From assembly GCA_016868755.1 (NCBI GenBank), contig VGFU01000002.1, positions 1-64,000 on the forward strand: 64,000 nucleotides of DNA, in the 5' to 3' direction. This document shows positions 3,642 to 5,215 of the stretch, piece by piece. Below the pieces are notes generated by a model. That model made no database searches. It worked only from the letters and a program-made list of their open reading frames with translations, and had not been told where the DNA came from. Made by a program: the position numbers and the translations under genes. Position 1 is the stretch's first letter. Each line of letters begins with the position of its first letter. This DNA comes from Bacteroidota bacterium. GTDB lineage: Bacteria; Bacteroidota; Bacteroidia; Flavobacteriales; Schleiferiaceae.

Positions 3642-3714
3642 CGGGATGTAGCTCAGGTGGTAGAGTACACGTCTGGGGGGCGTGTGGTCGCAGGTTCAAG
3701 TCCTGTCATCCCGA
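3642..3714 (+). tRNA. tRNA-Pro (anticodon GGG)
   Basis: Cloverleaf: acceptor CGGGATG pairs with CATCCCG, D-arm GCTCAGGTGGTAGAGT, anticodon loop CTGGGGG (anticodon GGG, reads CCC/CCT), T-arm GCAGG-TTCAAGT-CCTGT. No encoded CCA. Confidence 0.96.
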
Positions 3715-3715
3715 C

Positions 3716-3751
3716 AAAATCCCCTTAGCTTCGGTTAAGGGGATTTTTTGT
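3716..3751 (+). terminator. Terminator after tRNA-Pro
   Basis: AATCCCCTTA pairs with TAAGGGGATT around GCTTCGGT, followed by a T-run. Strong intrinsic terminator immediately after the tRNA. Confidence 0.9.
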
Positions 3752-3936
3752 GACCTATTGTCTGTGAAAACACTTATATTTAAATACTTGATATTCAAAT
3801 TTATATACCGATTATTTATTTGTTTGTAGAAGTTTTCAACGGGTTGTTCCACGTTCGATTTTTTTTCTACTTTCATAAAGCGCAAAAGGCAAAACGGTGT
3901 TTAGGTACCGAGATGTTGAATAACTTGGGCTTTGGT
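3752..3936. other. AT-rich intergenic stretch
   Basis: No ORF with coding character. It is much richer in A and T than its surroundings and probably carries the upstream region of the structured RNA that follows. Nothing else recognised. Confidence 0.6.
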
Positions 3937-3944
3937 TAAGTTGT
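3937..3944 (+). promoter_or_regulatory. Possible promoter of the structured RNA (TAAGTTGT)
   Basis: Six of eight positions fit the spirit of TAnnTTTG, and a TTG lies 18 nt upstream at 3916-3918. It sits at the AT-rich to GC-rich transition, where the folded RNA begins. Tentative. Confidence 0.35.
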
Positions 3945-4433
3945 TCGCGCTGAAGTAGTTAAGCGGTAAAACGCTAGTTAACTTGGGGACCTTGCTTGGG
4001 ACCCAGATTCTGCTACTTCACCGGGTCTCCTTGGTCCGACGACGGTCGGAAACACTAAGGATGGTTCGTGAGAGGTAATGCCTCTCGGCCACCTGAAACC
4101 GCCTCTCGGCGGGGACTCTTCGGGGTCATTCAGGTGCTCGATCACGGAGCTGCAGCTCAGTCTGCGATGCTCCGCGCGGAGGAAGCCGCGAACCGCCGCA
4201 CGCGCGGTCTGATCGAGGGGGATGTGGACCCACGAGACCTTGAAAAAGAGGTCAGGCATTCCTCGACGGAGGGAAAGAGCTTGGGTTACATGTTCCAAAG
4301 CTGGGTGCGCCAGAGTCAGGCTTCTGGCGAGTACATCGAGCAAAAGCCGTCCTACGGGACGTGCAGGGTAACGCATTCCCACCGAGTGCACCTGCTGAGC
4401 GCGGTTTCTTCGGGAGCCGCGCTTGCTTTTTTT
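3945..4433 (+). ncRNA. Large structured non-coding RNA of unrecognised family (~490 nt)
   Basis: I see no protein gene here but a dense series of perfect helices on the plus strand: TCCGAC/GTCGGA (4035-4040 with 4045-4050), GAGAGG/CCTCTC (4070-4075 with 4081-4086), CACCTGAA/TTCAGGTG (4090-4097 with 4129-4136), CTCGATCA/TGATCGAG (4137-4144 with 4210-4217), GACCT/AGGTC (4236-4240 with 4249-4253), CGCCAG/CTGGCG (4308-4313 with 4324-4329) and CGTCC/GGACG (4348-4352 with 4357-4361), ending in an intrinsic terminator. It lacks the tRNA-like ends and tag ORF of tmRNA, the SRP RNA tetraloop region, RNase P blocks, a group II domain V, and any nearby reverse transcriptase or nuclease gene. Overlapping ORFs on both strands (129 and 137 aa) resemble no protein I know and are typical of GC-rich RNA. 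Function unknown. Confidence 0.7.
4396..4433 (+). terminator. Intrinsic terminator of the structured RNA
   Basis: AGCGCGG (4398-4404) pairs with CCGCGCT (4417-4423) around a 12-nt loop, followed by GCTTTTTTT. It defines the strand and 3' end of the RNA. Confidence 0.85.
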
Positions 4434-4495
4434 ACCCCGGTGTCACCCGACGGTTAAATTTGTGTATTGTGGTACACTTATTGATTGCGAAGGTC

Positions 4496-4513: not shown

Positions 4514-5215
4514 ATGAAAATCGACTTTCTACCTTCTGACTTCAACGTGGCCTTAGCCTCGTCGGTCGTCGTATTTGGATTTAGCGGCGACGAACTCCTG
4601 ACGCTGATTGCTACCAAGAACGGTGAGCCCTTTAGCGGTGCCCGCATCTTGCCGTCGGCCATCATCAAGCCCGACCAAGCTCCAGAAAACGTAGTTAAGC
4701 AGCTCCTGCGCGAGCTCACCCAGCGCGACGATTGGCCCCTGGAACAGCTAAATTCCTTTGCCAACCCCTACCGCAACCCCTCGGGGCGCGTTGTCAACAT
4801 CGCCTACTACGCCTTGGTGCGCCTCACCGACGAACTCAAAAGTGACCTTGAGGCCAAGGGATTTAAGTGGATTCCGGTTTCTAAGGTTCCGTCGATGGCC
4901 TACGACCACGATGACGTTATGGCATACGCCCGCGAACGCTTTAAGCGCCGCGTGAAGCGCCGCCCGGTGGGCTTTACGCTGCTTCCGCGCGAATTCACGC
5001 TGAACGAAATCCAGCGGCTTTATGAGTGTGCGCTTGGCAAGAAGTTTGACAAGCGGAACTTTCGACGCAAAGTCCTTAAGAGCCAGCTGCTCCTCGAAAC
5101 GGGCAATTCAGTGCGTTCAAGTGCCCGCGCCAAGCGTCCTTCACGCTTGTACATGTTTGACGAGAAAAAGTACCAGACCCTCACGCTCAAGGGGTACGAC
5201 ATCGTCTACTTCTAG
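4514..5215 (+). CDS. NUDIX-domain transcriptional regulator (NrtR/AraR-like)
   Basis: Residues 1-140 resemble a NUDIX fold and residues 145-233 a winged-helix DNA-binding domain, the NrtR/AraR architecture in which a NUDIX domain binds a ligand instead of hydrolysing it. The NUDIX box is degenerate: the glycine is missing (PSAIIKPDQAPE) and the REUxEE core reads RELTQR (66-71), so metal-dependent hydrolysis is unlikely. The C-terminal part is rich in Arg and Lys, as expected for DNA binding. Neighbours are the structured RNA and a convergent peptide transporter, so its regulon cannot be read from context. The ligand, possibly a sugar or ADP-ribose-type nucleotide, is unknown. Confidence 0.82.
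   Translation: MKIDFLPSDFNVALASSVVVFGFSGDELLTLIATKNGEPFSGARILPSAIIKPDQAPENVVKQLLRELTQRDDWPLEQLNSFANPYRNPSGRVVNIAYYALVRLTDELKSDLEAKGFKWIPVSKVPSMAYDHDDVMAYARERFKRRVKRRPVGFTLLPREFTLNEIQRLYECALGKKFDKRNFRRKVLKSQLLLETGNSVRSSARAKRPSRLYMFDEKKYQTLTLKGYDIVYF

Follow-up and report, generated by a model that had tools for sequence, protein, structure and literature searches.

The window analyzed here, a 64,000-nt stretch of a Schleiferiaceae genome (Bacteroidota), raises the question of what is encoded between a tRNA-Pro gene and a NUDIX-like regulator gene. A preliminary description had proposed that positions 3937-4440 hold an unassigned, independently terminated structured RNA of about 490 nt, which would be a new class if conserved. 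The present analysis supports this proposal. The two flanking genes held, as a tRNA-Pro(GGG) gene and an NrtR-type NUDIX gene, as did the terminator, a terminator-like hairpin followed by T7 to position 4433. The extent was corrected, since the inferred 5' end lies at approximately 3879, which lengthens the gene by about 60 nt at that end. The RNA gene spans approximately 3879-4433 of the forward strand (about 555 nt). Its 5' end was deduced from the spacing to the promoter and from the stem that closes the 5' domain, and its 3' end is at 4433, where a 12-bp terminator hairpin (4397-4408/4413-4424) is followed by seven T's. The upstream tRNA-Pro(GGG) gene ends in its own hairpin and T-run, and the RNA therefore requires its own promoter. 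The locus is composed of the following features.

3642 to 3715, + strand: neighboring tRNA-Pro(GGG) gene, with its own hairpin and T-run behind it (about 3718-3749)
3879 to 4433, + strand: RNA gene, defined by fold, covariation, promoter spacing, and terminator
4397 to 4433, + strand: intrinsic terminator, 12-bp hairpin plus T7
4514 to 5215, + strand: neighboring NrtR/NUDIX-type regulator gene, unlinked to the RNA in other clades

Two further NrtR/NUDIX-type paralogues are present in the window's own genome, G000 (C5:78795-79436 and C3:29688-30353), so about three are carried by the genus.

To the genus of the window belong Schleiferiaceae/'Cryomorphaceae' metagenome-assembled genomes (MAGs) of small size (1.3-1.8 Mb), 22 of which were searched. 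Homologues of 550-830 nt were found in 20 of these, with one copy detected per genome, and fell into three sequence clades (A, B, and C) and one outlier. A blastn search of 60 relatives identified eight carriers including the window, all within its genus. Model R1, a covariance model built on the 3' domain of clade A, matched G015 (E value 1.3e-6) exactly between tRNA-Pro and the dadA/NUDIX block and gave weaker matches at the equivalent place in G004, G003, and G006; together with G013 and G009, these genomes constitute clade B, in which the RNA measures 666-681 nt from promoter to terminator. The clade B model (R2) matched clade C (G014, G017, G010, G016, and G012; E values 6e-20 to 8e-24) and the outlier G019 (1.2e-14), whose RNA is about 830 nt long. 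R2 also matched back to clade A, namely G020 (5.9e-8), G001 (1.7e-6), G011 (2.5e-6), G018 (6.8e-6), G002 (8e-6), the window (4.5e-4), and G005 (0.006), and gave no match in G007, which was matched by R1 and by model R3, both built from sets including G007. The homology of clade A to the other clades rests mainly on the 3' core and is supported by the context of position, promoter, and terminator. The contig of G021 begins inside a terminator-proximal fragment of the RNA, and G008 had no match.

Outside the genus, the RNA was not detected with R2 in about 375 genomes of the order and 394 of the phylum, nor with R3 in 394 genomes of the class and, under laxer filters, 37 nearer relatives from other genera. 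These samples (about 1,000 genomes) overlap in part, and the stricter filters of the large searches can lose weak matches. Since the RNA was not detected outside one genus, deep conservation is lacking. Conservation in relatives, which the preliminary description had left to a BLASTn check, was confirmed across the genus and, within the limits of the searches, does not extend beyond it. In most of the family's other genera that were inspected for a positional homologue beside dadA, another gene follows dadA closely; some have a longer gap, from which the motifs are absent. No blastn match was obtained in phages or plasmids. Two motif matches on viral contigs are probably due to chance: L238 scored 11.3 bits with R3 (E value 0.07), and L249 had no R3 match at a site that reads as coding sequence. 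Within the genus, the sequence evolves fast, with the helices and the specific promoter preserved.

The stretch 3945-4440 (496 nt) folds with -234.2 kcal/mol, versus -192.3 ± 6.6 kcal/mol for shuffled sequences (z = -6.4), none of 100 shuffles being as good, and the antisense strand folds much more weakly (z = -2.9). Two 8-bp helices described beforehand both held and were located exactly: CACCTGAA at 4090-4097 pairs with TTCAGGTG at 4129-4136, and CTCGATCA at 4137-4144 pairs with TGATCGAG at 4210-4217. Upstream of the terminator, the fold comprises the following parts.

3879 to 3951, + strand: 5' domain, closing stem 3879-3883/3947-3951 (AGCGC/GCGCU)
3951 to 4020, + strand: domain with invariant CCUUGCUUGG, closed by 3951-3960/4011-4020
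4024 to 4066, + strand: long hairpin, 4024-4034/4055-4066, with inner stem 4036-4040/4045-4049
4070 to 4086, + strand: hairpin 4070-4076/4080-4086, 98% canonical in 7 sequences
4090 to 4136, + strand: three-way junction closed by CACCTGAA/TTCAGGTG, 6 of 8 pairs compensated
4137 to 4217, + strand: multi-branch domain closed by CTCGATCA/TGATCGAG, 5 of 7 consensus pairs compensated
4220 to 4296, + strand: 3' core junction with hairpin CCUUGRRAYAGAGG (4235-4254) and stem 4260-4264/4269-4273, common to all clades (models R1, R2, and R3)
4300 to 4341, + strand: hairpin 4300-4314/4323-4341, with an 8-nt loop, (G/U)UCAGGCU, conserved in clade A
4348 to 4361, + strand: UACG-capped hairpin CGUCC-UACG-GGACG, conserved in all clades
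4363 to 4395, + strand: stem 4363-4367/4391-4395, with inner hairpin 4373-4378/4384-4389

Covariation analysis revealed that this fold is maintained by compensatory change. On a plain MAFFT alignment of the seven clade A sequences, RNAalifold predicted 173 pairs, 85 of which showed compensatory change. A fairer test took the minimum-energy fold of the window sequence by itself and counted changes on the same alignment. In this test, 90.1% of the pairings were canonical and both sides had changed at 76 of 173 pairs, compared with 40.0 ± 4.1 in shuffles and 10-24 when the structures were slid by 1-3 columns. The two 8-bp helices were among the best, with both sides changed at 6 of 7 pairs in one and 5 of 8 in the other. 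The stem 3879-3883/3947-3951 is kept in all seven sequences with G-U and A-U variants and one broken outer pair, and the long hairpin at 4024-4066 carries compensatory changes at 9 of 11 outer and 3 of 5 inner-stem pairs. On the clade B MAFFT alignment, 78 of 195 pairs were compensated. The clade B 3' core had 24 of 56 pairs compensated versus 9.5 in shuffles, a count that leans towards itself because the structure was derived from the same alignment. Across all 20 genomes, 48 of the 56 core pairs vary on both sides, with a score of 0.578 versus 0.199 shuffled, which is biased to the model because the alignment was fitted to it. G-U cells outnumbered A-C cells by 151 to 17 in clade A and 113 to 17 in clade B, and this excess identifies the + strand as the functional one.

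Common to the clades are the CCUUGRRAYAGAGG-like hairpin, the UACG hairpin, the terminator with its T-rich tail, and a 5' end near (A)RCRCAA, and a stretch of about 100 nt in clade B is missing from clade A. The hairpins of clades B and C are capped mostly by GNRA (GAAA, GCAA, and GUAA) or UNCG-type (UACG and UUCG) tetraloops. In clade B, 87 of 257 unpaired columns are invariant, and 40 of these 87 are A. The tetraloop caps and A-rich invariant unpaired positions would fit tertiary packing, an inference made from sequence alone. A simple scan for additional covarying helices gave no credible pseudoknot, and no conserved palindromic apical loop, as expected of kissing loops, was seen among the hairpin loops inspected.

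The region upstream of the RNA contains a putative promoter and fixed-position elements.

3832 to 3840, + strand: U2 upstream element GTTTTCAAC (RTTNTNAAC-like in relatives), about 36 bp before the -7 box
3844 to 3846, + strand: putative -33 element TTG, with a spacer of 21 nt here and 19 nt in most relatives having TTG
3868 to 3875, + strand: putative -7 element TACTTTCA (TAnnTTTG-like), conserved in 19 homologues

Every one of the 19 full-length homologues has a TAnnTT(T/C)-like box directly before the conserved 5' end. When the printed alignment is read by eye, U2 begins 35-37 bp ahead of this box in 19 of 19, and an automatic pattern (purine first, or exact TTATTCACA) found it at this position in 13 of 19; the longer U2 pattern had no other exact match in the window. 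In clades B and C, a palindrome, U1 (TGTTTAAACA), lies 114-116 bp before the -7 box, being one base off in G019, G014, and G017; the G009 contig is too short to judge it. In four of the seven clade A genomes, U1 takes the form TGGTNNAACA, 105 bp before the box. The exact palindrome recurs nowhere in 139 kb of two genomes in which the RNA's own element is variant or absent. The tmRNA genes of four relatives have a -7-like box, and U2 was not evident there by eye. The upstream-element loci in relatives are L171-L177 and L194-L199. That a Bacteroidota-type promoter belongs to the RNA, and that the fixed positions of U1 and U2 suggest a dedicated regulator for it, are both inferences from these motifs. 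U2 is a DnaA box (TTATTCACA) in G002 and G020. A replication origin, suggested by the DnaA-box-like U2 and the AT-rich flank, was considered and rejected: no clear skew switch occurs at the RNA in G007 or G017, and there is no TTATNCACA cluster.

No known RNA family accounts for the RNA. At the gathering thresholds of the 4,227 families of Rfam 15, none matched the RNA itself, and only tRNAs and a partial RNase P RNA were found across the window. The latter (class A, positions 1-197) is truncated at the contig start and is directly followed by a gene for a DEAD-box helicase with a DbpA RNA-binding domain. A relaxed search (E value of ≤10) revealed no credible family over the RNA and only a few weak sub-threshold matches, which included sbrA at the terminator (19.5 bits; threshold, 45) and a tRNA match at 3949-4014 (15.8 bits, E value 3.7; threshold, 29). 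The tRNA-like match did not recur in the four clade A relatives tested. Searches of the loci of ten relatives (E value of ≤5) gave only tRNAs and scattered sub-threshold matches. RNase P, SRP RNA, and 6S RNA models did not match at E values of ≤10, and neither did group I or II intron models; the RNA has a single detected copy and its own terminator in every genome. A tmRNA identity was also rejected, since a separate canonical tmRNA exists in 15 of 22 genomes of the genus, including the carriers G002, G005, G007, G020, G003, and G013, the RF00023 model did not match, and no tRNA-like ends or tag frame were recognized. No tmRNA above the Rfam cutoff was found in G000 (97% complete), probably because of an assembly gap. 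A literature search on the bacterial group and noncoding RNA found nothing relevant.

These results bear on the remaining claims of the preliminary description. Its exclusion of tmRNA, SRP RNA, RNase P, and group I and II introns held on the Rfam searches. It had named two outcomes that would refute it, namely, a strong hit to an Rfam family, and homologues with predominantly codon-type substitutions and helices that do not covary. Neither was realized, since no family scored, no reading frame is conserved, and the homologues covary strongly in the helices. Its judgment that no convincing open reading frame (ORF) exists also held, although ORFs of 129 amino acids (aa) (+ strand) and 137 aa (- strand) lie inside the RNA in the window, because relatives do not keep them.

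These two overlapping ORFs are what could favor a protein-coding gene mistaken for an RNA, and this reading is all but ruled out. The longest ORFs vary between genomes in strand, place, and length, being only 60-77 aa in some close relatives; the ORFs in the region had no Pfam match, the sequence changes are compensatory, and no ORF is conserved. A start shared with an ORF of at least 15 codons is absent from clade B, and there is only one, of 15-16 codons, in clade A. Similarly, there is very little to recommend the idea that the RNA acts in cis on the downstream NUDIX (NrtR-type) gene as a leader or attenuator. The NUDIX gene does follow the RNA in the window and five clade A relatives. However, the next gene is a convergent POT transporter gene in G005 and G007 and a convergent dadA (PF01266) in clades B and C and G019, and these differing downstream genes indicate that the RNA is not a NUDIX leader. 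The RNA also has its own terminator in all homologues and is several times the usual leader length, and the test for a riboswitch or leader (the same downstream gene on the same strand in homologues) was not met. Upstream lies tRNA-Pro in clades A and B, but clade C and G019 (L194-L199) have other genes there and keep the convergent dadA despite this difference. No dadA match above threshold was obtained in G000, G002, G005, and G011 of clade A.

The other explanations accept a functional RNA and differ in how it would act. A homo-oligomer made of RNA only, resembling GOLLD and ROOL and forming a dimer or cage through intermolecular loop contacts, is unlikely but remains possible. It is favored by the comparable size and helix density, the tRNA neighbor in clades A and B, and the lack of an adjacent partner gene, but neither a conserved palindromic apical loop nor a covarying extra helix was found, the chromosomal locus lies beside housekeeping genes, and no phage or viral homologue is seen. 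A new ribozyme, processing itself or another RNA, is improbable. The many invariant unpaired purines of clade B and the GNRA-rich architecture would fit a compact tertiary fold, but no ribozyme or intron family matched at E values of ≤10 for the RNA or ≤5 for the loci of ten relatives, the RNA has its own promoter and terminator, and the fast turnover of sequence and domains between clades would not be typical of a catalytic core. Also doubtful is a small-RNA-like mode of action, in which conserved single-stranded loops of this long RNA would serve for base-pairing regulation or as a protein sponge. Exposed loops such as (G/U)UCAGGCU and CCUUGCUUGG are conserved in clade A and the promoter looks regulated, but the UCAGGCU loop is replaced in clades B and C, where the fold persists instead, and the RNA is mostly double-stranded.

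The preferred reading is that the locus is likely a genus-specific, independently transcribed, trans-acting structured RNA gene. The promoter-like region, the covarying multi-domain fold, the terminator, the single detected copy, the changing downstream genes, and the lack of a conserved ORF are shown by the sequence, and transcription, stability, and action as a folded RNA are inferred. The criteria for a large lineage-restricted structured noncoding RNA are met, with compensation beyond controls, no ORF, and a promoter and terminator of its own. Because no known family was matched, the RNA, which lies next to a tRNA gene or an oxidase gene and keeps its folded shape throughout the genus, very probably represents a new large-RNA class of unknown function. 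Under the preferred reading, the RNA would fold into a compact multi-helix body of hairpins with GNRA- and UNCG-type caps and A/G-rich invariant junctions, and a regulator bound at the conserved upstream sites may control the level of the RNA. By analogy with OLE RNA, the folded RNA may serve as a ribonucleoprotein scaffold, an idea with roughly equal chances of being right or wrong, as no protein partner was found. Since none of the adjacent genes is constant, any protein partners would have to be encoded at other loci. An RNA-only assembly, catalysis, and base-pairing regulation remain alternatives to the scaffold. A bolder reading, which we regard as less likely than not, is that the RNA founds a new class of large RNA machines with a function unlike that of any known RNA; the machine may be a new ribozyme, an RNA-only assembly, or a ribonucleoprotein, and it would have originated in a single genus of aquatic Bacteroidota with small genomes or have persisted there alone.

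Few large structured bacterial RNAs are known, and several of these (OLE, GOLLD, and ROOL) proved to be unusual complexes. The RNA described here has no recognized relative and is retained in almost all of the genomes searched from a genus whose genomes are small. It offers a good opportunity to ask why such bacteria keep an RNA of 550-830 nt. It also raises the question of whether genus-specific large RNAs exceed what family databases suggest. The alignments and positions make the RNA testable at once in existing metatranscriptomes.

Among known systems, tmRNA (RF00023) resembles the RNA in length class and stand-alone expression. OLE RNA (about 600 nt) is similar in its size, complex secondary structure, stand-alone bacterial nature, and open biochemical role. 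However, OLE RNA belongs to Bacillota rather than Bacteroidota, its covariance model is unmatched by the RNA, and, in contrast to OLE, neither a consistently adjacent partner gene nor a palindromic dimer loop was seen for the RNA. GOLLD and ROOL are likewise large ornate RNAs near tRNA genes without a partner gene. They are located in phages or prophages and near tRNA islands, and palindrome-switching loops are shown by OLE and GOLLD (PMC12286853), whereas the RNA described here is fixed as a chromosomal gene in a single genus and has neither a phage homologue nor an Rfam match. In its distribution, the RNA most closely parallels, among published cases, the smtA motif ('Soda Lake RNA') of Thioalkalivibrio, which is longer than 350 nt, strongly covarying, found in a single genus, and unlikely to be a riboswitch (PMC11109978). 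The two RNAs are alike in being large, covarying, and genus-confined, but they differ in phylum and associated genes, and their sequence relation was not compared. The sequence family reported here appears to be new, and lineage-restricted large RNAs of unknown function, to which it would belong, are a recognized kind.
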